The translations under genes and the position numbers were made by a program. 64,000 bases of DNA from Cerrena zonata (lineage: Eukaryota > Basidiomycota > Agaricomycetes > Polyporales > Cerrenaceae), in assembly GCA_038087015.1 (NCBI GenBank), contig JASBNA010000005.1:62001-126000 (forward strand), given 5' to 3'. Position 1 is the stretch's first letter; each line of letters begins with the position of its first letter. Below the pieces are notes generated by a model. It was given only the letters and a program-made list of their open reading frames with translations. It was not told the origin of the DNA and ran no database searches. Shown here one piece after another: positions 22,774 to 60,600 of this stretch.

Positions 22774-25303
22774 ATGTCCAGCTCTAACAAGCGTCCTGCA
22801 CCCTCAACTGACCGCCCAGAGCCTGAGAATATGTCTATAGCCGAAGCGACCGCTGCTATCACTAAATTCACAAAAACCAAGAAAACACTTAGGAAGAAAC
22901 TTGGAGGAGATGGTATGTAACTCTTATTAATATGTGTGCTATATGAGTTCATATTCTTTCCATATTATAGCCTATCTTGCCAGACTGAAGGAAAGAGTTG
23001 GTATACCAACCGGTGATAACACTACACCTGTCAATCCAGGTATGCCTAATCATCTACTTGAGATGATCCATGAGGTTTCTGACATTTTCATTATAGATAC
23101 AGCTGCTTCTACAACTCAGAATCCTGAAGTGAGTCTAGAAATGATTCTCTGTAAAAATTTGAACAAGGTTTTTTTCACATCTGGACTACATTACCTTGGT
23201 GTTGAAGATTTACATTTCAATGTGTATAGTGTTTATTCTTTACAGTCTAGTTTTCACATTTGCAGAGTCTGTGTATATTTCACATTCTACTGTTACATAT
23301 GTGAATTTTTAACATCCTTTACTTTCATTGTCTGTGATATTTTAACACATCCCATCTATAACCATATTGTGAAGTCTTAACTCTTCTGATATATCTTCAC
23401 ACATGTGTAAAATTAACATACCATCTCCTTCTTAGGTATGTTATTTTTACACACCTCTGTTGTAGCTCCACATATGTGTAAATTTAACATATCATCTCCT
23501 TGTAGGTGTTGTTTTTACACATCCTATCATAACCCACTGTGAAATCTTCACTCTTCTGATACATTTTCACATATGTGTAAAAATAACATACCATCTCCTT
23601 GCAGGTGTTGTTTTTACACACTATGAAACCTTCACTCTTTCCATATACCCCCACACATGTGTAAATTTAACATTTCTACTCTTTGTGGGTGTGAGAAATT
23701 AACTGTTAGATTTCTACATAATCTTTAGAGCTCATATCTGTGTAAAAATTACAGTTTGGTATACCAAACTGTTAGTTTTTAACACCTTACTTTGGGCATT
23801 TGACTTTTTTATTCTGAAGGCTGATCTCAAGTGTGAGAATCCAACTGTTATATTTTGACACCTAAGATATACTAGATGTCAGAATGTCACAGTTATCAGG
23901 GGTACACAACTGTTATTGTTTCACAATACTGAGGCCTTACTATCTATGTGAACTTTTAACACATAGATAGCACAATTGTTGAAACATCACTATAGCTGAT
24001 GTTGCTGTAATATTTTCACAGTAGCTTAGCTGGAATCTGTATTTCTGACAGTTAATCCTTCACAGTAACAATTTAACACTGACTACTGATTAAATTTTAC
24101 AGGTCATTGATTCATCTATCTCTGAAGTTCCAACTCAGGAGAAAACTATTTCACCTGATGAAGGTACTGTTTCACTCTTTAAAAATACTAGACTGCTGCT
24201 GAGTATCTCATCTTAGCTAAAGATATAATAGCTGCATCTATCCCAGCACTTCCTCTCAACAAGTTTGAGAAAGCTTATGTTGCTCTTATAACTGAGCAAG
24301 CTAAAGGCAAGCCCAATGACTTCCTTCTCATTGAGAGGAAGAAAGAGGTAGAAACCACCTGGGCAGTTCTTGACACAGTTGTCAAGAAGATCTGCATCCA
24401 AGAGAAGCTAGACCCTAGCCTAGTTTGGATTGTAGACACTCAGGACTATGCTGCTGGTGTTGAGTGGCTGAAAGAGAAGCTCGGTGTTGTCTTTGAACCA
24501 TCCACAACTATCAGCAAGACAATATCCCCAGAGGTATGTAGATATCAATTTGATCTTATGTTTATTCTCATAACTTACATCTATATCTAGTCTCGGGCTG
24601 AGAAGAGTAAGACCATCCTTATTTAATTATATCAGTTCTGATTATAATTTTTAGAGATCTATTTGAAGAATGACTTGGGCAAGAAAGTTCATTTTGATAG
24701 TCAAGCACGATTGGATGCTAGAAGCGATCCTAAGGCCTGGAAAGCTGTTCTTGAGAGCGGAAAGGACATAGCATTGTATACCTTTGCTAATAGGGTATGT
24801 TTTTCTTGTTTACAAATGTATTTTATTTCTAATGTGTTATTGTATAGACGGGTGAGATGAAATGTCTCACATGTCATATTGGTGGAAGAGGTGGCAACCA
24901 ATCTACCAAAGGTGCTGATATGAGAGGTAGAGGTCCTGGATACCTGACAGGTTGCCAGTGTCCTGAGCACACTGCACTTACAGAGCTCTTCCTAACCAAG
25001 ATTGTTGCTGGAGATTCTGATGTCCCTCAGAGGCTGATTAAGCACAACTCACCTACTGAATTTAACAACCAATCTTTTAGTACAGGTACTTTTGCTATGA
25101 ACCCTGTTAATCTTGCAAGGGTTGAGGGTATGATTTATCAGATTTCTGGATTAACAGTAGATACTATGTTTCTTCCTGAGCTACAGAGGACAAAGGTGTC
25201 AGCTATATGGCTTTTGGAAAAGTTGGAGGGGTTGTTGATAGAATCAGAGGCTGAGGCCAAGGTAGTAGAGGAGATGGTCAAGAAGCTGAAAGCTTCTATC
25301 TAG
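22774..25303 (+). CDS. Unrecognised gene at the left end of the element
   Basis: Starts 270 bp inside the left boundary (MSSSNKRPAPSTDRPEPENM) and reads inward. A short intron joins GGDG to AYLARLKERVG. Another, of about 960 bp (23130 to about 24090), is filled with repetitive motifs. Further exons read ALPLNKFEKAYVALITEQ, VEWLKEKLGVVFEPSTT and DPKAWKAVLESGKDIALYTF. The last exon holds CLTCHIGGRGG and GCQCPEHTAL, a possible zinc site, and ends in a charged helix (EAKVVEEMVKKLKASI). About 480 residues. Convergent with the zinc-finger gene to its right, with about 85 bp between stops. I do not recognise the family; no DDE or recombinase motif is apparent. Confidence 0.6.
23130..24100. repeat. 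Motif-dense tract in the long intron
   Basis: Nearly 1 kb of AT-rich sequence in which ttcaca/tgtgaa, tttaacac and tttttacaca/tgtgtaaa recur every few tens of bases, with three or four imperfect longer copies of cacatatgtgtaaa...accatctcctt...ttttacac (about 23395-23660). A related string, gtgtgagaaattaact, occurs at 23690 and again near 35006 beside the recombinase gene. Confidence 0.6.
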
Positions 25304-46392: not shown

Positions 46393-48884
46393 ATGTCTAG
46401 CTCTATTCGAAAGAACCAACCGCGTTCGTCTACAGGACATGTTCTGCTGCCAGCAACAAACGCGACCTCTCACCCAGTAATGATACCAATGGTGCCTACC
46501 AAAACACTGCTCAGTTGGACGTTTGGTCGGGGGACCGTGGTACGTGTTTCTATATGCATCCATTCTGGCCTTTCGGTCAACGTTCAATTCTCTTTCAAGA
46601 TTTGGCGTATTTGGCCAGCGGTGTTACTTCATACTGTTTTTGCTGCAGGTGTGTAATAGTATACAACGTTTCAAAGAGCCCAAACCTGAGTGTATATAGC
46701 TGTCATTTCTGTGTCATTAACAACGCGCTTCAAACTCGGAATTCCCAATGTCATGCTGACCCTTCTTGGTACGTCCTTCCAACTCACCCTTCTAAACTTA
46801 TTGCCTTATACTATATCAGGTGTTGTCATTGGTTTCGTGATATCTTATCGAGCCATGTCTGGGTATGACCTCATTGCTTCTGTAATAGAAGACCCTCTTC
46901 AACTGAACTCTATATGACAGCTATGATCGTTACTGGCAGGGCCGATCATACTGGTCTGATGTGATGCGCACCTCAAGAACTTTTGCTCGTTTGATCTGGT
47001 TCCATGTTCCTATGAAGACGGGAACTGTACATGATGACCCTGCGACAACTGACGATGATCACAAAGTTAAGAGAGACAAGAAACGCGAGGTGAGGAGAAT
47101 GATGGCAGAGAAAAGGATGGCATTGGATCTCGTCGAGGCGTGAGTTCATTTCATATTAGCTTCTTATGAACACCGAGGTGACACTTAATAGATTCTCTGT
47201 CGCATTAAAACATCACCTCCGTGGTATGTTCTATGTTTCACATTCCTTGCATATTCTCTGAGTTTCGTTTTAGGCGAGATTGGACTATATTACGAGGATC
47301 TTTACCATCTTGTCCGACCTTTACATGAGGTGCGTTTCCCTTATCCCAACCTGATTGCGCCTGACGTTAAGTTTTTTTCAACTCTTCTGAAGCATGATCA
47401 TCAGCAACACAAACGGTCAAACCAGGATTCGGCCGAAAATACTCAACAAGATCCTTTCTCCACCGAAACTCCCTTCATGGACATTTACACTTCACCCACT
47501 GCCGGCCCCTCGACTCAAACACAATCTATACCAACAACAACGGAGCCTATGCCAAAAATGTCACTATCTGAAACCCCGGTTATACCACCTATTAATGCCT
47601 ACGGAACATTCTCATCTACTTCTAATGCTAACCATCCCAGTAACTCGCATCACCTTGTCGCACACCGTTCACTCTCTACGTCATCCACAGACTCCTCCAT
47701 AAGTACGGATAATGAGAGTAGATTATTACTCCCGAGCCACGTACCCAGGAAGGAAGGAGTCATGAGTAAGGTCTCGGGAGACTTGATACCGTTCGCAAAC
47801 GTATTCGGGTCCTTCGTCAAGGGAATAACGAAGACGAAGAAAAAGGTCTTTGGGAGCGATTTAGAAAACGGACCGGATACCCCCGATGAAGGAAATACCT
47901 TTGTGGACGCAAATGATGTGATTGCGCAGAGGAGGTGGGCCGAGTCCGGTAGGTTCACAATTCTTACTCGATAAAAGATCATGTCTGATTCCTCTCCGCC
48001 TGTTAGGACGTATATCGACTGTCGGATTCACACATGCGAAACATCGACCCCGGATTGCTGGCGGAGGGGACAATACACCTCTTCTCATTACTCGTGCTCT
48101 CACACAGTGGCTTAGCGTTATGGAAGCCCGTGGAACTGTTCCTGGAAATACCCTTGGAGGAATGTTTGGATGTCTCAGGTAACTTTGAAGATAGTCTATC
48201 AGGTCTGGAAAGAATCTTAACTACACCTCTTCCCTTGTAAGTGTCCTCCGTTCGTATCTTTGAGCCAAGTACCTAACCCTCGTCCATGCTAGCGTATTCT
48301 CGAACCATATTCGGTGAGTACTTCCACGTTTACAAAGATGATGACGACTCATGGGTACCGTTTTCGATATCATTTCAGCCAGTATGTACTTGTCTATCTA
48401 AGTTTGAGTTGTATACTAACCATGCGCGTAGCACTGTCTGGATTTACTTATTTTTCCTCCCCTTCCAGCTCGTAGACCTTTTCGAGTGGTACGCTATACC
48501 TGGAGTTGCTATCGCTGCCTTCATTTATCTCGGGTTCGTTGCATCTGGTGAAGAAATCGAACAACCATTCGGTACGTTTCCAATTTTCTCTAAACGACGT
48601 AATCATACTGACTGGATTTCAGGGTATGACGAGGTAATGCATTCCATATCACCACTCAGTGGTCATCCTCTTAACCCGAGCTACCTTAGAACGATTTGGA
48701 TCTTGACATGTTCTGTCGCGAGGTAATTCATGCGGACTTCGAACACTTGAAACGGACGCCGTGCATGAATGTCTTCATTGGGTCTCATCATGATATTGAT
48801 GAGACTCTTGTGGAACCTCCCGAAGCCGTAGCGAAGGGACGAGTCGAAGAGGTGTTTGGTTTGTGTTTATTTCTTCATTTTTGA
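46393..48884 (+). CDS. Bestrophin-like anion channel (UPF0187)
   Basis: Integral membrane protein of the bestrophin/YneE family, which forms chloride-type channels. Exons: MSSSIRKNQPRSS with VPTKTLLSWTFGRGTV; IWRIWPAVLLHTVFA; SVSLTTRFKLGIPNVM; VVIGFVISYRAMSGYDRYW; SYWSDVMRTSRTFARLIWFH; GEIGLYYEDLYHLVRP. After an inserted low-complexity cytosolic loop of about 200 residues (47390-47950, rich in Ser/Thr/Pro) the family sequence resumes: LSVMEARGTVPGNTLGG, FEDSLSGLERILTTPLP, VWIYLFFLPFQLVDLFEWYA and FVASGEEIEQPFG. The end is LDMFCREVIHADFEHLKRTP, stop at 48884. Start chosen as the first methionine before the conserved LLSWTFGRGT. Confidence 0.87.
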
Positions 48885-49207
48885 CAGAAACTGGCAGGCA
48901 CTGATTATTTCGGTAGGTCATGACTAGAGCTGTACATCACGAGTATGGACCACAGAAAATATGAGTTGTATTAGGGAATACTATCGATCGTACTACTGGG
49001 TCTCTGAGATGTCAAAATTAAGCCAACCCGTGCCGCTGCTGTAAACGTTCAATCATGAATTCTGTAATCTGGATTATGAAGTTTAAATTGCAGCCAAAAC
49101 CACTTAGTCTTATTACAGTAACTAGTACTTAGTAACTACCAAGTACTAAGCTTACGGCTGAAATGTCCTACGTACCTTAATACGGTTGTACTACCATATG
49201 GTAACAT
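48885..49207. other. Intergenic, upstream of tRNA
   Basis: No gene seen. Around 49120-49150 a short palindromic string (agtactta..., accaagtactaagc) is present. Confidence 0.4.
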
Positions 49208-49291
49208 GGCCTGGTGGTCTAGTAGTATGATTCCTTCTTAGGGTTTGCAATCATTTGGAGGAGGTCCCGGGTTCAATTCCCGGCCAGGCCC
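49208..49291 (+). tRNA. tRNA-Pro (AGG) with a 12 nt intron
   Basis: Acceptor stem ggcctgg pairs perfectly with ccaggcc, with discriminator base c. D arm gtctagtagtatgat and T arm cccgggttcaattcccgg are canonical and hold the A and B boxes. The anticodon loop reads ttagg followed by about 12 extra bases, and the stem ccttc pairs with ggagg (one G-U), so the anticodon is AGG with an intron at the usual position after base 37. It would decode CCU/CCC proline codons after A-to-I editing. Confidence 0.88.
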
Positions 49292-49309
49292 GTATATTGA
49301 CGCAGGGAC

Positions 49310-49314
49310 TTTTT
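49310..49314 (+). terminator. Pol III terminator of the tRNA gene
   Basis: Run of five T, 19 bases past the tRNA. Confidence 0.6.
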
Positions 49315-50903
49315 ATAAGCTACAAGAGTGAGTACAGGTAAGTACCCGAGCTCTCTCATGATCAGGCCTCAGGCTCATAACCATTGCGGTCAGGACGACC
49401 ATCTTAATTCCGTAGCAATTTTTAGCTTCATTCAGGGATCATACAGCCCGGCAATATTTGGCACAAACCACAACCATCTATTCAACGTCACTTTCGAGAA
49501 TCTTCGTTGTTATCTCTGCAGTTGGCCAGATGGTCTCTGCGGTAATCGCAGCCTAGATGTTTCATATACATATATGCACATGAACTCTTTCTATGTGGAG
49601 AAACTAACAAAATCAAGACGGGTTTCCTCACCATCATCTGTGATAGGTTCGCGGTCCTCGTCGTGAAGGATGTCTCCTGCTCGAAGTACGAATGGTCACC
49701 TGAAAGCCCTTTCCGTCGGAACAGCTGCAATATACCATGAAACGAATCAAGGGGCTTTCGAGTACCGAGCCAATGGTCGGAAGGTTGACAGGTTCTTCTC
49801 ATCAGGAGGTATTCTTGGTGAGGTCCCACCTTTTTTTATCCTCAGCCCATGCGAAGCTCATGTAGAGGTGAGGTGAACTCCCAACTTGGATTTTGACTTT
49901 CACAACGAATTTGAAATGCGATAACCTGATACTCGCTACCTTGTATACTTGATAACACAGGTACCGGCATGAACATTCCTTAGTTGGAGGACTAAACCGA
50001 GGACCAAATCCGGCTATGTGTTGCTTTTCAATCCAGCCCTGCAAGCACCTAGTATGAGAGTCGTTGTGTTCGGACCCGGACTTCCGTTGGAGCACGATAT
50101 TTGTGGCAGCGTGTGACGCATGGATGTGTATTCTTATAATAACATGCTACCGCCTTCTGCTATGTTCGCACTTCGTCTATTCTGAGACACTCTCCTTTGC
50201 ATCCACAACTTGGGAAGCATACTGTATCCTCTCGTTTTCTCTCGTCTTCGCAGCACACCGTGTCTTTCAGGACCTTGTTTTGTAATGTGAGGCTTATCAA
50301 TCCTTCTTGCAGGGCCGAAACGTGTCTTCAAAGTTGCGGCTACTTATACAACACACGACGAGCCTCTGACAAGATGTTGATGAACCACTGCCACCATGTC
50401 CGAAGAATGGGTGATCGCGAGGCTCAATGCGTTGTTGTTAGTCATAAAACAATTACGGTATTCTTAGTAGCCCCCGGCCAACTTGGATGCTGCCTCAAAC
50501 AACGAAGATATAGAAATTCTGTACGGATGCGATCGTTCTTGTAATAAGGCAATATACCGTTCGACTTGATGTTCTAGAGACAACTAATTGACAAAAAGTT
50601 GCAGTTTCCGGCCTTGGCCGCGGCTACCGCGTTTTGACAACATGGTCTTCACTCTCACGCCATCACGCTAACTATGACCTTATACTGATGGATGGGTCTA
50701 TCTTCCTTGGAGGCGTACATCCCCTGAGAGAAAGTAGTTATACAAGTACTTTATCTCGACTACCCTTATGGCACGGGATTCCGGGTATGTTTTCTTAGAA
50801 TCAATCGTCGGTGTCCCGGCGATGCTGAATCATAAACTACGTTGTAAGTCCCCGTTTATTTGTAAAGCTTCTTCCCCTCAACTCATCATAAATATCTGTG
50901 TTC
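49315..50903. other. Intergenic stretch without supported gene
   Basis: About 1.6 kb. Several open frames exist (such as 49670-49876, reading NQGAFEYRANGRKVDRFFSS) but none has joinable neighbours that I recognise. It may contain decayed coding sequence. Confidence 0.4.
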
Positions 50904-50911
50904 TATATAAG
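50904..50911 (+). promoter_or_regulatory. TATA box of the amidohydrolase gene
   Basis: TATATAAG, 42-49 bp upstream of the start codon. Confidence 0.55.
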
Positions 50912-50952
50912 CAAGTCTACAACCCCGCATCATCCATAGGCACAATACTGAC

Positions 50953-52372
50953 ATGAAGATGACGCCGTTTATTGCTATCCTAAACGCCCTCGCTCTACTA
51001 CCGCTCGCTTTAGGACGTCGTCTTTGGAATGATACCGGTGTAGGCACGATAGTGTTTGAAGAAGCATGGACTATACCTTCCCTTGGTGGACCGTAAGTCA
51101 TGATATCCGTTACATATTATGTTCAAGGCTGATTCGAGTCTTCCAGTGCTTCTGTGGGAGCACCGCCGTTTGGTTGGAGACTAATTCTCTATCTCTTAAA
51201 CCAGAATTCCTAAAAACATCTCTATAGGGCAAACGAATGCAGACCTCTTAGCGAACTTACTTGATGTCCACAACCAACGGCTTACTAAAATGGACCAAAA
51301 CGGTATCGATTTTGTTCGTAATCCACTCGTTTTATACATTCGACGTATTCCTCAGAATTACGATTTAGATGGTACTTTCATGCGCTAGCCCGTGCATTCA
51401 AGGTATTTCCGATCCTGACACTGCGAATGCTATGGCCGTAGAAGTGAACAATGAATTGGCCCGCCAAATTTCCAACAATACGCTCCGTTTCGGTGGCTTT
51501 GCAGCTCTGTCTATGCATAATGCCACCGTTGCAGCTCAGGAGTTGAAACGTACTGTTACAGAACTCGGTTTCCTAGGCGGACTAGTCAATGATTACCAGC
51601 AATCCGGCTCCAATAATGGTTGGCTCTATTCCTAACCATGCGAAAGCAGTCTATTTCGATCACTAATATGGGAAATTGACCAGATACTTTGATCTTCTTT
51701 GATCAACCCGAATTTGATATCTTTTGGGAAATGGTCACGGAACTGGACGTACCCATATACTTCCACCCTCGAGTGAACGTGGAACCGATTTCCACATTAC
51801 TTTATGCGCATGCTCCCTGGTTAAAGGCAGCGAGTCAAGAGTTCGCTGTCACCCTCTCCTCACACATTCTTGGATTGTGTACCAATGGGGTATTTGAGTG
51901 AGTCCCTGTTTCGTTTCATGTTTCCTTATAATGAACATCTTTCCCTACGCAGCCGCTTCCCTAACGTGAAAGTCATTGTTGGACATCTTGGGGAGCGAAT
52001 TCCTTCAGATCTCGTACGGATTAACGAGCGTAAGTCTTTTGTCTATTCATATTGTCGATGTCTGTTTACACTTTGCATGGTACAGAACTGAGACGCGAAC
52101 TTGTCATTGGTATGCCAATGCTATTAAACGTAACAAGTTATCTGGGAACGAACCTGTTTGAGACGACATCTGGAAACTTTGCCACCGACTTGCTTCAATT
52201 CCACATGAAGGAAATCGGTCTCGACAGGATTACGTTCTCCATCGATTATCCTTTCGTTCCCATTGAGGAGGCCGCCGAGTGGGTCAATTCATTATCCGCC
52301 ATCTTAACTCCAGAGGAGCACACTGCCCTCAAGAGAGGCAACGCCATCAAATTACTGAAGTTGAATAACTAA
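50953..52372 (+). CDS. Secreted amidohydrolase (ACMSD / dihydroxybenzoate decarboxylase family)
   Basis: Amidohydrolase-2 fold enzyme; relatives decarboxylate aromatic acids such as 2,3-dihydroxybenzoate. The start at 50953 opens with a signal peptide (MKMTPFIAILNALALLPLAL), unusual because most relatives are cytosolic. Then FEEAWTIPSLGG, in the place of the first metal motif, LDVHNQRLTKMDQNGIDF, MVLSCASPCIQGISD, LARQISNNTLRFGGFAALS and ELGFLGGLVNDY. PEFDIFWEMVTELDVPIYFH gives the conserved histidine (YFHPR), FPNVKVIVGHLGERIP the second (GHLGE), and ITFSIDYPFVPIEEA the catalytic aspartate (SIDYPF). The N-terminal HxH of many relatives is replaced by EEA, as in decarboxylases of this class. 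Five or six short introns. It neighbours the UstYa-type gene convergently. Confidence 0.85.
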
Positions 52373-52974
52373 ATCGCTGTAGAGCTCGTCACAGTGTTCT
52401 GTAATCACGAGCATCCGGCCGATATCACTTGATAACTACTAAGTATCTTGTACTCAAGCTCAATTTCGTTATTTCAAGTTGCATTAGGAAATACATGTCG
52501 TGCCCAGTGATACTGGCATATGGGTGATCAGACCGTTCATCTTCTGCCGAGGTTCGTTATCACATTCAAGCAATTGTGTATGCGTTGATCGTCGATAATC
52601 TTTCGTGATGAAATACCCCATCTGAATTAGGTAGCTCATTTTTTGTTCCCTCAAGCTGTCTCAAATTTACTGTTTCAAATCCATACGAGCAGGTACTGCG
52701 TGTCTACTTCTGTGCCACTACCGAAATACTTTCGTTCTGTTCCTGAGCTTGGATGCTATGTCGTTCAATTACTCGGAAATCGCATACATGCTCTAAAAGA
52801 TTTTACATCCAATTACATGTGTTACAATATTGGAGCAGGTCATCTTAACATGTGGCCGCGAAGTCTGACTCGGAAAGTTTGGAGTTGGGATAAAAACGTA
52901 TATTTTCGAGTAAGCCGTGGCAATGTGAGTTTCTTGAAATTAGTAGAAGGATAGGTACCGATTAAGCCCGTATT
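52373..52974. other. Convergent intergenic region
   Basis: 600 bp between the amidohydrolase and UstYa-type stops; no gene seen. Confidence 0.45.
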
Positions 52975-53955
52975 CTACACCCCGTGTATATGTATAGTTT
53001 GGTTGAACTCCTCAATCTTGTGCGCCTTTGCCCATTCCACCACCTTGTCGAAGTTCTTACAAGAATGCACCGTATCCATCCTAGGAACGGCAGTACTCTG
53101 AGCATCGCTCCACTGCCAAACAATCGAGCTGCCATATGGTGAGGTAGCATTAATGTAGATCCTAAGGCACCAATGATCGAGTTACTAACCTGATATCAGC
53201 AGAGCACATCAACGCTTGTCGTATGTTATCAACGCAATGGTCAATATGTTCGGGTAAATCCTCTGGAAGAACACCGCCAATAGCCCCCGTCGCAGGGTCC
53301 CTGTAGTAGCCAGCCCTCAGAGCTCGTCGAATCATATTCTAGGTGAATATGAGTCAGCATCAAACCACGATGGAAAGAGAAAATGACGAACCAGACAGTG
53401 GAGTTGATGAAATACCGATAATGCAACGATATAATTATCCTCATCACCAGGGATAGAAACTGTCTTATTAGGAAGTTGCAAAGCCTGCGCTTTGGGGATC
53501 TTGGATACTCCGAAATCTAGCATATCAAGCGCTTAGAGGTTGTCATTAGTTTCTAGACCCAGGGCTCACCGTTATACAAATCTTCCCAAGCCTTGTCGAC
53601 AGTATCTGACGGCTCTCCCTGGTACATTGTGGTCTGACGACCGACACCCATGCTAAACCGCACAGGGGTGTATTCGATTACATTCTGAGCTGGTGCTGTG
53701 TTTCGTGGTATGAGACAGATGTCAAGATCAGGTTTGAATGTACATACAATAAATTTGCGGAGGATTCGTCTGAGTTTTACGACTCCACAGGATTAACATA
53801 AGGATTAGAATAACTAGAGACTGTGCTGTGACGATCGCCCAGTGGAGAGTATTGCGATACCGGTAACCTCTTCCGGTGGCAAGCTTACTCGACTTATTGT
53901 CGAGGTATTCAGGATCATCGGCGAGTAGGAGAGTGTACCGTTCGTCGAAAGACAT
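52975..53955 (-). CDS. UstYa-type oxidative cyclase candidate (DUF3328)
   Basis: DUF3328 proteins (UstYa/UstYb) make macrocycles in fungal ribosomal peptides such as ustiloxin, asperipin and phomopsin. Start at 53955 (MSFDERYTLLLADDPEYLDN), chosen because it gives a short cytosolic tail before one membrane anchor (AIVTAQSLVILILMLILW). Luminal exons read VIEYTPVRFSMGVGRQTTMY and GEPSDTVDKAWEDLY. They continue with NKTVSIPGDEDNYIVALSVF and the first metal motif HQLHC, then LPEHIDHC with the second HxxHC, and CVDNIRQALMCSADI. The last exon, SSIVWQWSDAQSTAVPR, ends HIHGV at 52975. About 240 residues, normal for the family, with both HxxHC motifs present. It is divergent from the precursor gene across 399 bp. 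Confidence 0.85.
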
Positions 53956-54354
53956 GATAGTAGAGGATGAGGTTTCACGAGTATGCCGATACTTAATCAA
54001 AACAGGAGTTAGCATTCCACGATGTTGATAAATTGACCTCCATCTCGAGGGAATATTAGGGGCCTGTTGGCACGCGTACCCATTATAGGCAATGAGCAGG
54101 CGAGAGTCAACCAACTGTACTGTTAGAAGTTAATTGATCACCGTGGCGGCAAAAGTGAACGAATTGGGTGGAGGTTTTGTGCGATGGTCGTGTGCCGCAG
54201 TCTATTCTGAGTCGGGGGGCAAGAATACGATATGGGATGAGATCTAGATAGGGCAGGATACAGTATAAAGCTTGGCCCCCGGTTGGAGGCAATCACTCAC
54301 CCCAACAGGCGTTCTTGAAGTCTCTATCCACAATCCTCCGCCCTCGCTCTCATC
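53956..54354. promoter_or_regulatory. Shared divergent promoter of UstYa-type and precursor genes
   Basis: 399 bp between the two start codons. On the precursor side TATAAAG stands at 54264-54270, about 85 bp before its ATG. Such spacing would allow co-regulation; this is inferred. Confidence 0.5.
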
Positions 54355-54778
54355 ATGTTCAAGGCCACCTTATCCACGTTCATCTTTGCTGTTTCCTTCG
54401 TCGCTGTCACGGCTATTCCCGTTTCTGAGGTGAGCGTGGCTGCGTTGAACGTTATAACGGAGATATCTGAATGTGTTGTAGCGAGATGTTGGCATTGCGG
54501 ACGGGGGAATCGTCACTCGTACCTCACAGGAAAACGTAATGGAGGTGAGCAGAGCTCAATTACGTACCTATAAACTTACTGATCGTATCCATCTACGACA
54601 GCGTGAGGCCAGCCCTCCGAGCACTGATGAAGTCTTCGGCACGAGGTACGGAATCCTCGAGCGCGAAGTAGCCGACACCCTTGAACGCAAGGACACCGAC
54701 CTATTCTTTGCTCAAAAGTACAATCGCGCCCTTGAACGTAGGGATACAGACCTCTTCTTCGCTCAAAAGTACGACTGA
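54355..54778 (+). CDS. Secreted repeat-core precursor protein, candidate RiPP precursor
   Basis: About 98 residues from three exons. Exon 1 (54355-54429) is a signal peptide ending AVTAIPVSE. Exon 2 reads RDVGIADGGIVTRTSQENVM. Exon 3 starts REASPPSTDEVFG and holds two near-identical units, LERKDTDLFFAQKYN and LERRDTDLFFAQKYD, the second ending at the stop codon. Each core (DTDLFFAQKY plus N or D) follows a basic pair (RK or RR) fit for Kex2-like processing, and carries two Phe and one Tyr, the residues UstYa-type enzymes usually crosslink. A preceding GILEREVADT may be a decayed unit. Both introns have canonical borders. It is not a basidiomycete mating pheromone: it has a signal peptide and lacks a C-terminal CaaX box. 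Confidence 0.75.
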
Positions 54779-55193
54779 ACGTAAGGCCAATACCGTTGCG
54801 GTGTAGAAGGGCTATCAGGGGCGGAGAGGTGTGCTGGACAATGGGATATTAGCAGAAGTGGGTGTTAATGTAGATGAGATATAAATGTTTGAAGCTATCC
54901 GAAACTATGTTATCTGTGTAAGTACTGTCACCTACTGTGACGCACCAATTCGGAACAGCTAGGGTGTCAGTGAAACTTCAATACATCGGGCGCTTCCAAA
55001 TACCGGGTTACTAAATTTGGCAAGGCCGTTGAAAGCTAACATGGACAAATATCGCTGGATACACTCGAGAGAGTGGGAAACCCGGCCAGTCACCGCTACC
55101 ACCACGGCGATCTAGGCGACGAGTCTTTTTATACTACCCTAACCCACTCGAGAACTAATTGATGATCTATGATATCTTTAGGGACTCTTTCTC
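54779..55193. other. Intergenic, no gene seen
   Basis: 3' flank of the precursor gene and upstream side of the F-box gene. Contains tttttatacta near 55124, a possible TATA-like element. Confidence 0.4.
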
Positions 55194-56877
55194 ATGATAG
55201 ATGAACAAACCTCCACGAATGCTACTGAGTCCGGGTCGTCTTCAACATCGAAACCGAATGGAGGTGATACTCCTACCAACTCCACAGTAAAAGTCGAAGA
55301 TTTCATGGACCTTCATCACCAGTCTTCTCTCCTCGAAAGTTCCCGTCGTCATAATATGCTCCTTCCCATCTCAACTCTCCCTCCAGAGATTGTTTGCGAC
55401 ATCCTTCGTTACGTAGCCCAGCAGCGGGAGATCCAGCCATGGGAGTATCCTCCAACCCCCACATACATATGGATTCGTGTAACACACGTCTATCACTACT
55501 GGAGGGTAATTGCACTATCGGACCCCCAATTGTGGAACACCATTGGTCTATACGCAATCGATTTGATGGACGAATTACTGAAACGGGCTGGAAACACACC
55601 TCTGGACCTCACCATCACTAACTTGGAACCTAACTCTACCGCTCGTATTTCTTCGTCAGTTAATAAACTAATGGGGGCTTTGACCAAAGCTCGATGCTTG
55701 AGAATCATGTGCTTACGAAGGAACTCTCACAGTGTCCTGAACCTTCCCGGATGGTCCTTCCGAACCTCCGTGTCCTCTCGGTATTTGGTCAACTGGATAG
55801 TTTTTTTCTCACTTCGATGGTGTCCAAAGCAATATGCCCTTCCCTGACATCCCTTCGTCTCATCAATATGTCCATCCCATGGCATAATGTCGGATTATTT
55901 CTGACCTCCTTGACAGAGCTCGAGATTGTAAGCAACTTTGATCCTCCCTGCCGAGTAGAGAACGCTCTCTTGACCCTCGCAAGATTGCCAAACCTACGCG
56001 TCCTGGCCATCTCTGGTATTAATGACGAGAAACCCGATCGACCACAGCCACTTGTACAGCTACCTCATCTACGAGAACTATCTCTTATCGATCGATAACT
56101 GTACACGAAGCGCCTTATGGAAAGCATCGTATGTCCAGCCAACATCTCTCTCCGTCTCAGAGCCGATTCTTTCGAGCAAAAGTCGGATGACTTTCGTGAT
56201 ACGTTGAAGAGGATCTTAGCTTCTAGGTTGGTTATTCAACACTTGACTTTGAAATTCGCGAGCTCGAAACAAGCATGCGCCTTTTGACTGGATTGCCAGA
56301 CCCACACCACACCCAGACCTATCATCACTTCGCAGTTCAATCTAACGATGCTATTAACACCATCCACGGCGTACTGAACCAGGCCTCTCTTTCGAGCATG
56401 ATATCTCTCAGGTGGAATGTCGTGATCTATTCCCGATGGAGCAGCAACAGCCATTTCCCCCCTCACGTGGTCAGGTTCTATGACTCATTCAATAAATTAG
56501 AAGCTCTAGAATATTTAGAGCTCTTCGGCAGAGATTTGATTGCCATCCTCAGGCATAGGCTTATTAAGTCGCCCAGTGCTCCTGTCAACTTTCCCCAGCT
56601 TCAAACGCTCGAGCTTCATGATTTGGAGGAAGAGTGGTACTATCTTGCAAGGGACCTGGCACATGATTTCAAGCACCTTGGCCACTGTATCAGAAAGGGG
56701 ACCTTGTTGTTTCCGAAACTAGGCAAAATTGTATTCGACAAGGTCGCGGGCTGTGGAGAATTTGAACGAAGGATACTGGTGGATGCGATATGTCTCAGAC
56801 GATCTGTCAGCACTACCGCTGTCAGAATTGAAGTTAACAAGGATAAGACTAGGTACACCTACATCCTACCCGAATAA
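55194..56877 (+). pseudogene. F-box/leucine-rich repeat protein, frame broken
   Basis: Start at 55194. The F-box is LLPISTLPPEIVCDILRYVA followed by THVYHYWRVIALSDPQLWNT, as in the large agaricomycete F-box family of SCF ubiquitin ligase receptors. The frame from 55194 ends at 55847, but leucine-rich-repeat-like sequence continues in another frame from about 55700 (LPNLRVLSVFG, SLTSLRLINMSIPW, RLPNLRVLAISG). A third frame follows about 56100-56280 and a fourth to 56877 (LEALEYLELFGRDL, LQTLELHDLEEEWYYL). I could not find splice sites for all these changes, so at least two frameshifts are likely. It may be a decaying family member. Confidence 0.6.
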
Positions 56878-57695
56878 ATAAACTGGCGAGTTCTACTGTA
56901 TTATCTCAAAATTCAAATGGATACTAACAGTCCCTGTCAAACTAGGATGTTCATATCTTGCAGCTACCCCAACAATAGGCACGGATAGTATGTTGATGAT
57001 TTCCACTGTCATCACGTCCGTAATAATGAACGTTAATGAACAGTTCTGAAGTTCGATCCAATTCTTTTAGTAGTAAATTCAGTATGGTATTATTAGAAAC
57101 CCCGAGTTAATATTAGTAGTACATGTCTACATCTGCCCTATTTGATTTTCCTGCCACCATGTATGTGAACCCCATTTTTGTCGTAATAATCTACGTACCA
57201 TGTGGCAGAGGTTTACAGTTGCCAACAGGCATTAACGTTCATAATTGGAGTTGGCTGGTCCAGTTGGTAACAGGTTATGATGGGTCAAGATCGTCCGAGT
57301 CAGGGTAGGTAACGTAACTTCGCCTCCCGCCCTATGTCGCATAGGTATACCGTGGCTCCGACCTGCGTGTGTCAGATTTCCCTTGCAATATCAACACAAT
57401 CTACACTGGGTAGGGAGCAATGACATCCGAGTCGTAGTCGTAGTCGAGCCCATGCCGACATGTCCGAGATACGGCCCGAGAACATCAAATAATTAATACT
57501 TTGATTTGCGCTATTCCCACGATACACGTGGAGCAAACGCGTACATAGTAACATACAACGCGCGACGACGCGTCCAGAACCTAGTTCCCACTTACTTACC
57601 TAGCAGCAATCCAAATCGTAGTAAGTTATTGGATCCCTGGTCATATTAACCTGCATTGAATGCTGAATGTTTTATATCTAGCACAGGTGCACAAT
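56878..57695. other. Intergenic, no gene seen
   Basis: 800 bp upstream of the helicase; no supported feature. Confidence 0.45.
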
Positions 57696-60600
57696 ATGTC
57701 GCTCAGGCTGGAAACACCACATGCATTTTCTGCATTTCCCTTCCTCCCCTACGAGATACAGCTCAATCTCATGCAGCACCTATACACCTCTATTGAAGAT
57801 AGAATGGTGTCCATAGTGGAGTCTCCCACTGGAACCGTGAGCTACGTGTTTCCAATACTATTCGTATTCTAATATGTCTTCAAATAGGGGAAAACCTTGA
57901 GTTTGTTATGTGCCTCATTGACATGGCTCCATGACGAGCAGGACCGTGTTAGAAGAGGAAGTATAAATGCGTCATCTAACAATAACGGTACGTGTTTGCA
58001 TTCCGTACGCCCTAAAATTTGAATGTCAAATGTACAGCCTGTAGCGCCGGACTGGGTGCTCGCTCAAACTTTGGAACGTAAAAGAAGAGAACTTGAAGCT
58101 GAAGAGCTAGAACGAGTCAATAGACTTCTCAAGGCCAGACAGAAAGAAGCTTCATTGCGAAAAGCTGCACTGAATAAGGCTAAACGAGCGGTACATGACA
58201 TCCACATGCGCTGAAACAGGCTGATCTGAACATCTGTAGAGAATTGCAGATATCAAATCGACTACAGAGTTAGATTTGGAAGACTCGGCATTTCTTCCAG
58301 AAGATGACAGCGCCGTTAACGACGAAGATGATAATATCTCCCCAGAAGTCCGCGCCTTAATGAAACAGTGAGTTCGCTGTCAAACCTATGGGAAAAGTCT
58401 AAAGTTCTCGCATTTGACTCAGACTTGAGAAACCCAAGAAGGTTGAAGAGACAGTCGAACCGACATGCACAAAGGTATACTACGCTTCCCGGACGCATTC
58501 TCAGCTCTCTCAGGTTCTTCACGAACTGAAGAAGTTGAAGATCGACCTCTCTGGTGTACCGGTGCTATCTCTCCACCCCGCGTCCCCTGAACCATCATTA
58601 GGTAGGGCAAAGAGGTCAATATCATGTATCGAAGACGATTCGGATTCCCCGGAGAATATTAGTGTCCGAGCAGTTTCCTTGGGGTCCCGAAAACAGCTCT
58701 GTATAAATGAGCAGCTTAAGACAAAAGCAGGGGATCTTGATGAAGCCTGTAGACAGAGGCTAAGCGGTGGGTCTTTATGGCATATGTGTAGAGGCGGTGA
58801 ATCAATATTAATGTATTATTCAGAAAAAGGTGATAAGAGATGTCAGTTCTTGCCACCCGCCGACGATCCCGTCCAAATGCTCGATTTTCGAGATCAAGTA
58901 TTAGTATGTCCCATTGCATTACTGGATGATTTCATATTGAGAAATATCAATCACAGGCCACACCAAAAGATATTGAAGATCTCGTAGTCTCTGGAAAGAG
59001 TGCACAGATCTGTCCATATTTCGGAACAAGACGTGGTGTACCCCAGGCTCAGGTAAGAACGCTGTTATGATGAATCTTTACCGCCTCATTCCAACTCACT
59101 ATAGTTAGTCTTACTACCGTACAACCTGCTACTTCAACAAGCGGCCAGAGAATCTCTCGGTATTGACTTGAAGGATCAGGTTGTAGTCATCGACGAGGCA
59201 CATAGTACGCGGCTGGTTCGCTTTTAGCTTGAACTCCGAATATAAATTGACACTACTACTTTAGACTTAATATCGACGTTACTTTCGTTGTCGACTGTCC
59301 AGCTGCCTTTACGGACCCTCTCAACGGCGCAGCAACAGCTCTCCATCTATCTCTCCAAATTCAAGCATCGACTGTCAACCCCAAATTCTTTGCATTTGAA
59401 ACGACTTATTAGTCTCTTAGACGCCTTGTTCAAGTCCACAGAAGAGTGGAAAGCTGGTCATTCGAATCAACCTACGAAGAAACTCACCGACGAAGTCTTA
59501 ACATCGAGTGAGCTTCTTCGCAGGCTCGGAAGAAAAGTCGAGGGCATCAACCTGCTCGAGATCGAGTCATATCTCAAGAAGAGCAAAATCGCACGCAAGG
59601 TCTCAGGATACTGTGTCAAGGAGCTTGAGAAGGCCGCCGGAGCAGGTATGTCATACTCATCTAAGCTCTGTTGACATAAATTAACTTTATTCAGACCCCG
59701 TGAAACGCGCGAAGCTGTCTCGGCTTTCCAACACGACACCCCCTTTGCACGCCGTAGAAGGTTTTATCGTAGCTCTGACGGCGACCAGCGACGGTACGTA
59801 CAGTGTTCCTGATGCTCCATATTGCCTCTTCCAATTGAATACGCTGGACCCGGTCTAGATGGTCGAGTGACATTTTCATGCACGGAAGGACAAGTGGAGA
59901 TCAAATATCAACACCTAAATCCGGCAACATACTTTCAAGATGTCGTTAAAACAGCCAGATCCGTCGTACTTGCCGGCGGTACGATGTCCCCCGTAAGTAA
60001 TGTCTCGCCACACCATTTGATTTCCGTCTTAACAGCACACCACTCCAGATTTCAGACGTGACAAACCAGCTATTTTCATGGTTACCCTCGGACAGACTGA
60101 ACACGTTCTCCTGCGGCCACATAATACCAGCGTCCAATTTGCAGACGCTAGTTGTCAAGAAAGGCCCTCGTGGCGGGGACCTGCAGTTCAAATTTGATCG
60201 GCGAAATGACCAGACTTTGGTATGTTCTACCCTGCAAGACTGTCGATAAAATACTAATACCCAACAAATATGATTTGTAGCTGGCTGAACTCGGACAGAT
60301 CATCCTGAACTTTGGAAATGTCGTCCCGAACGGCATGGTAGTCTTCGTCCCGTCGTACAGTTTTCTCAACATGCTGACTACTGCTTGGGAAACCAGCGGC
60401 ATGTTGGGATAAACTCCGGTCGAAAAAGAGGGTGCGACACCTATTTGTGTTTGATCTTTATCTATGTCTCCTGATTCTCATAATCGATCGTATAGGTCTT
60501 TATGGAACCTCAAGATTCCTCGGGGGTAGAACAGGTCCTGAGAGATTATGCCGCAGAGATTCAAGATCCCGTTAGTGTCCGTCCCTCGGAATCCGTCCTG

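Follow-up and report, generated by a model that had tools for sequence, protein, structure and literature searches.

The window, the whole 64,000-nucleotide stretch of DNA analysed from the wood-rotting polypore Cerrena zonata (Polyporales), contains a gene for a repeat-bearing precursor peptide head to head with a gene for a UstYa/DUF3328 oxidase. The features are as follows.

52975..53955, − strand: UstYa/DUF3328 oxidase gene of five exons (53955-53748, 53695-53570, 53516-53392, 53338-53190, 53128-52975), checked against QCA50_004685
53395..53409, − strand: first HxxHC motif, HQLHC
53234..53248, − strand: second HxxHC motif, HIDHC
53956..54354, no strand: shared intergenic region of 399 bp between the two start codons, from gene geometry
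54355..54429, + strand: precursor exon 1 with predicted signal peptide MFKATLSTFIFAVSFVAVTAIPVSE and phase-0 donor GTGAGC; protein identical to QCA50_004686
54482..54544, + strand: precursor exon 2 (RDVGIADGGIVTRTSQENVME), agreeing with QCA50_004686
54602..54778, + strand: precursor exon 3, containing the cores and the stop codon and agreeing with QCA50_004686
54623..54649, + strand: diverged first core TDEVFGTRY, aligning with TDLFFAQKY
54686..54691, + strand: RK dibasic site ahead of core 1
54692..54721, + strand: core 1, DTDLFFAQKY
54737..54742, + strand: RR dibasic site ahead of core 2
54743..54775, + strand: core 2, DTDLFFAQKYD, at the C-terminus

The precursor gene (+ strand, 54355-54778) encodes a product of 104 aa with a hydrophobic N-terminal start. 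The deduced protein is identical to C. zonata QCA50_004686 at NCBI, confirming the secreted, three-exon precursor of the initial annotation. The signal peptide predicted in exon 1 was selected by a relaxed hydropathy scan and missed by a stricter one. The two near-identical units described in that annotation, LERKDTDLFFAQKYN and LERRDTDLFFAQKYD, were each located behind a dibasic site; these sites, one RK and one RR, are the only two in the precursor and lie directly N-terminal to the cores. A third core absent from the initial annotation, TDEVFGTRY, precedes the two TDLFFAQKY cores and is without a dibasic site. Since the differences between the two main repeats are six synonymous and two non-synonymous (pN/pS 0.08), the peptide looks selectively kept. 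The computed MH+ of DTDLFFAQKYD is 1362.6212, or 1360.6056 with one crosslink, and the computed masses for DTDLFFAQKYNRALE are 1830.9021 and, with one crosslink, 1828.8864. Both introns sit just ahead of an arginine (E|R twice), as if the last cores had fused.

The UstYa protein, read from MSFDERY, comprises 253 aa and equals the C-terminal part of QCA50_004685 (273 aa), the splice sites of which are backed by relatives and reproduced in the 253-aa model. The Pfam UstYa profile matched with 168.9 bits (cut-off 25), scored on a 269-aa hand splice with two wrong acceptors. This match, both HxxHC motifs and the head-to-head start codons bear out the earlier identification of a DUF3328 enzyme divergent from the precursor. 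A hydrophobic stretch near the N-terminus is a probable membrane anchor. With MSFDERY taken as the start, 399 bp separate the start codons (the NCBI start lies further upstream), and the region between them is presumed from the gene geometry to be a divergent promoter. No solved structure matched the UstYa profile at E ≤ 1, NCBIfam returned nothing meaningful for the four proteins scanned, and the viral and prokaryote contigs scanned for UstYa gave no match. Tail to tail with the UstYa gene lies an intron-bearing gene (50911-52372, + strand), the last piece of which has a weak Amidohydro_2 match of 23.6 bits, below cut-off.

Related UstYa genes and their precursors

The Pfam UstYa profile gave at least 45 exon matches in the C. 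zonata genome, gene counts derived from them being lower bounds. The window and 20 stretches around UstYa matches outside it were scanned for internal peptide repeats and DNA repeats (positions 48000-60000 of the window in the DNA-repeat scan), revealing repeat precursors adjoining several UstYa genes. With the window UstYa as query, at least nine genes matched over several exons, namely those at C5 (the window), C46:370k, C1:1886k, C1:1964k, C7:214k, C7:217k, C7:221k, C12:603k and C11:867k; for the remaining UstYa genes, matches were weak (no more than about 33 bits per exon) or absent. UstYa relatives occur in Somion occarium, Steccherinum ochraceum, Cristinia sonorae and Panus rudis. A tree built from exon pieces, obtained by a short search with SH-aLRT support only and a long-branch warning, split off 19 other UstYa rows with a support of 99 (C68 and C124 left out) and placed the nine clade genes together with Polyporales genes from Somion, Steccherinum and Panus on one branch with a support of 98. 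The nine C. zonata genes by themselves do not form one branch. Some of the other UstYa genes (19 in the tree; stretches L012-L016, L019-L022, L027, L028, L030 and L031) are in opposed pairs. UstYa matches on C124 and on C11 (stretches L030 and L031 versus L015 and L016) score identically or almost so, perhaps reflecting a second haplotype or a recent duplication.

At each of the nine clade loci, the UstYa gene faces a secreted precursor head to head. At C1:1964k two further precursors follow the first in tandem, bringing the total to 11, of which three are annotated NCBI genes. Three precursors missed by the repeat scan (those of C11:867k and C7:217k, and the third of C1:1964k) were added by scanning, first strictly and then with relaxed settings, for signal exons that have a phase-0 donor. 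The relaxed scan of eight clade stretches (76,438 bp, L025 and L026 overlapping) gave 15 matches at 13 places, 11 of them precursors and two not. Nine of the 11 contain two or more cores by regular expression; those at C7:215k and C7:218k contain none by this means and were recognised by eye. Reading was by eye only for the C7:218k precursor and for the third of the C1:1964k precursors, the latter having two cores out of frame with the start that would need an intron.

The same relaxed scan of 13 stretches with other UstYa genes (124,012 bp), the only control for thresholds chosen after some of the genes had been seen, gave a single match, without a core, and no recognisable precursor lay beside the other UstYa genes in the stretches fetched. 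Since the pairing is head to head in nine of nine cases and absent at the other UstYa loci scanned, chance neighbours are unlikely and the pairing of precursor with UstYa is well supported. These results also support the earlier proposal of a dikaritin-type precursor and UstYa pair in a basidiomycete.

A sequence search of the C. zonata genome revealed no second copy of the window precursor, and a protein search (three candidates) matched only the precursor itself. A profile built from eight of the 11 precursors, omitting C46, C7:218k and the third at C1:1964k, gave three matches with E ≤ 1 out of 6207 candidates, each of them from C. zonata. The only relative seen without a partner is a broken fragment of a C46-type member on contig C53, which has no UstYa match among the matches listed. 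It consists of degraded core exons at C53:158062-158304 (stretch C53:155000-161000) with 77% identity over ~240 bases and is probably a relict.

Core exons and core sequences

The cores lie mostly on separate phase-0 exons in five precursors, and in a sixth as read by eye. One core corresponds to one exon in C7:215k, C7:222k, C12:604k and C11:869k, and by eye in C7:218k; the 17 cores of C46:369k occupy 13 exons with one core and two exons with two. The core-per-exon precursors modelled by script are the following.

L018:1765-3438 (C46:367764-369437): core-per-exon precursor
L026:5932-6780 (C7): core-per-exon precursor
L029:5998-6770 (C12): core-per-exon precursor
L025:6024-6797 (C7): core-per-exon precursor

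In these models of C46, C7:215k, C7:222k and C12, in which tails (L025, L029) and acceptors (L025, L018) were replaced by hand, the introns are 48-79 nt long and all GT-AG. Phase-0 introns were found in all seven genes tested. The exon copies of C7:222k agree at 0.81 over the first 30 nt and 0.61 over the last 12 nt, and those of C46 at 0.72; the agreement of flanking introns is 0.27 and 0.28 in C7:222k, and 0.27 and 0.27 in C46. Since exon copies agree at 0.61-0.81 and the introns flanking them at only 0.27-0.28, the comparison is strong sequence-level evidence that the predicted mini-exons are spliced.

For 25 of the 45 introns, the dibasic Kex2 site arises only when the flanking exons are joined (7/8 in C7:222k, 6/8 in C12, 7/16 in C46, 2/8 in C7:215k and 3/5 in C11). 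Counter to a simple Kex2 rule, however, five C7:215k junctions are Gly|Arg and nine of the 16 in C46 are not dibasic; many core junctions of the sister genes are monobasic.

The cores vary in sequence, with TDLFFAQKY in the window, VDMVFNANY at C1:1886k, VEDFFRPSIW and VDEAFPFHW at C1:1964k, TDESFGIYD at C46, VDDYNYG at C7:222k, VDECNLY at C12 and VNSTFVNSSY at C11. The motif [VTI][DEN]-x2-8-[YW] fits 41 of 44 distinct, hand-listed cores and at least one core in each of the 11 precursors, compared with a mean of 9.8 cores (maximum 19) and 5.7 precursors (maximum 11) in 2000 shuffles; with shuffles reaching up to 11 of 11, this looser motif is less telling per precursor. The stricter [VTI][DEN]xxF-x1-5-[YW] fits 31 of the 44 cores and 7 of the 11 precursors, failing in three at C7 and one at C12, against shuffle means of 0.5 cores (maximum 4) and 0.4 precursors (maximum 4). 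Both motifs were picked from the same cores, so that the shuffles measure order within the cores and provide no independent prediction. The pN/pS of the repeats was 0 to 0.13 in the seven of 11 precursors tested: besides the window, 0.02 at C1:1886k, 0.13 for one precursor at C1:1964k, 0.10 at C46 (15 cores), 0.10 at C7:215k, 0.13 at C7:222k and 0 at C12. By this measure, the cores of these seven are under purifying selection.

In the titles, abstract openings and passages of the open-access literature searched, neither core-per-exon precursors nor split Kex2 sites were found described. We tentatively suggest, as a reading that we hold to be somewhat doubtful, that mushrooms may possess a splice-assembled class of UstYa peptides in which every core has a symmetric phase-0 mini-exon to itself and splicing often creates the Kex2 site. 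In such genes, exon duplication or alternative splicing could add, remove or exchange cores while leaving the reading frame intact, and UstYa partners in basidiomycetes would be undercounted, such exons being missed by gene finders. Separate core exons may thus explain why such precursor genes escape detection, and partners could be sought upstream of clade UstYa genes by looking for a signal exon with short phase-0 exons behind it.

Proposed pathway and relation to known systems

The reading that we favour, with a probability of roughly 0.75, is that the locus is a two-gene dikaritin-type RiPP unit in which the cores are oxidised by the partner UstYa, most likely to an intramolecular crosslink, and the peptides freed by Kex2. 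What the DNA shows directly is the pairing of the genes, their motifs and repeats, the selection acting on the cores, and a family across the genome with a single UstYa clade; the localisation, recognition, crosslink chemistry, order of cleavage and biological role are proposals built on these features. The signal peptide would bring the precursor into the secretory pathway, where the UstYa with its two HxxHC motifs would act on each core. The acidic step [V/T]D common to the cores is probably part of UstYa recognition, and the Phe...Tyr/Trp stretch is the probable target of oxidation, most likely leading to the crosslink within the peptide. Kex2 would cleave at RK and RR, perhaps also at single Arg, and the peptides would then be secreted.

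That UstYa acts on the cores by another oxidation, such as desaturation or hydroxylation, in place of a ring-forming crosslink is an appreciably less probable explanation. UstYa homologues are reported to be necessary for residue desaturation in phomopsin biosynthesis (PMC10512285) and, in cyclochlorotine clusters, to carry out hydroxylation or chlorination (PMC12048977), and several relatives of the window UstYa carry the database name 'Cyclochlorotine biosynthesis protein'. In 41 of the 44 cores, however, a Tyr or Trp is kept and its spacing from the acidic step is limited, which would suit a crosslink. Ordinary linear, Kex2-released peptides of a pheromone-like or signalling kind, with the UstYa gene an incidental neighbour, are unlikely: Vogt 2022 reported linear peptides of Kex2-processed repeat proteins (KEPs) in four mushrooms (PMC9769878), but the head-to-head pairing at every one of the nine clade loci, not seen at other UstYa loci, argues against an incidental neighbour. 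A secreted effector, suggested by the UniRef label 'RxLR effector protein' on QCA50_004686 alone, was rejected as it leaves the repeat cores and UstYa neighbour unexplained and the 104 aa contain no R.LR motif.

A feature reported to define the dikaritin class is a DUF3328/UstYa enzyme with two HxxHC motifs beside the precursor (PMC12048977), and dikaritins have been placed in Ascomycota (PMC9233826; PMC12048977). At the window locus, a UstYa gene with two HxxHC motifs lies beside a precursor with a signal peptide predicted by hydropathy scan and multiple Kex2-separated cores, two plus one diverged in the window and up to 17 at sister loci. The two-gene dikaritin-type unit proposed here shares with ascomycete dikaritins of the asperipin-2a type the signal peptide, Kex2-cut cores, a single DUF3328/UstYa gene beside the precursor and aromatic core residues. 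The one UstYa homologue of the asperipin-2a cluster is proposed to perform oxidative macrocyclisation, and ascomycete UstYa homologues are reported as required for oxidative cyclisation (PMC6514808; PMC7329392). In contrast to that type, C. zonata is a basidiomycete with a different core entered by an acidic [V/T]D, a head-to-head pair, many related loci in one genome and, at five or six of these loci, a core-per-exon architecture. Ustiloxin and phomopsin clusters likewise combine UstYa-family oxidases with a repeat precursor, whereas the window locus has a single UstYa gene. A Pfam scan of 10 window ORFs detected no tyrosinase, S41 peptidase or methyltransferase; at roughly 8-12 kb from the locus, the window encodes a P450 (44.5 kb) and a subtilase (41-42 kb).

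KEPs of Agaricomycetes (Umemura 2020; Vogt 2022) are also secreted repeat precursors with dibasic sites. The peptides detected by Vogt 2022 were reported as linear and minimally modified, and the main text of that paper (PMC9769878) does not mention DUF3328 or UstY. Umemura 2020 defined KEPs, among annotated proteins, by at least three tandem repeats of 8 aa or more between KR, KK, RK or RR (PMC7329392), a limit under which the window precursor falls with one RK and one RR. The core-per-exon precursors of C. zonata, unlike those KEPs, are visible as repeats only after correct splicing; once spliced, the members at C7:222k and C12 would apparently fall within that definition. The same survey, kingdom-wide, placed 103 of 1680 basidiomycete KEPs near DUF3328 genes and suggested that cyclisation may hardly take place in basidiomycetes (PMC7329392). 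Le Marquer 2019 surveyed 250 secretomes (PMC6339444), and 16 UstYa-like genes of Pleurotus, an example of the many UstYa genes that mushrooms carry, have been listed as probably taking part in dikaritin production (eLife 2022, PMC8893723). The existence of UstYa-KEP pairs in basidiomycetes is therefore not in itself new; in C. zonata, at least nine UstYa genes of a single mushroom have their own precursors, in an architecture that may hide such genes.

Elsewhere in the window, a tandem peptide-like repeat (HICVNLTYHLLVGVVFTH) without basic sites was observed at 23362-23699 on the + strand.
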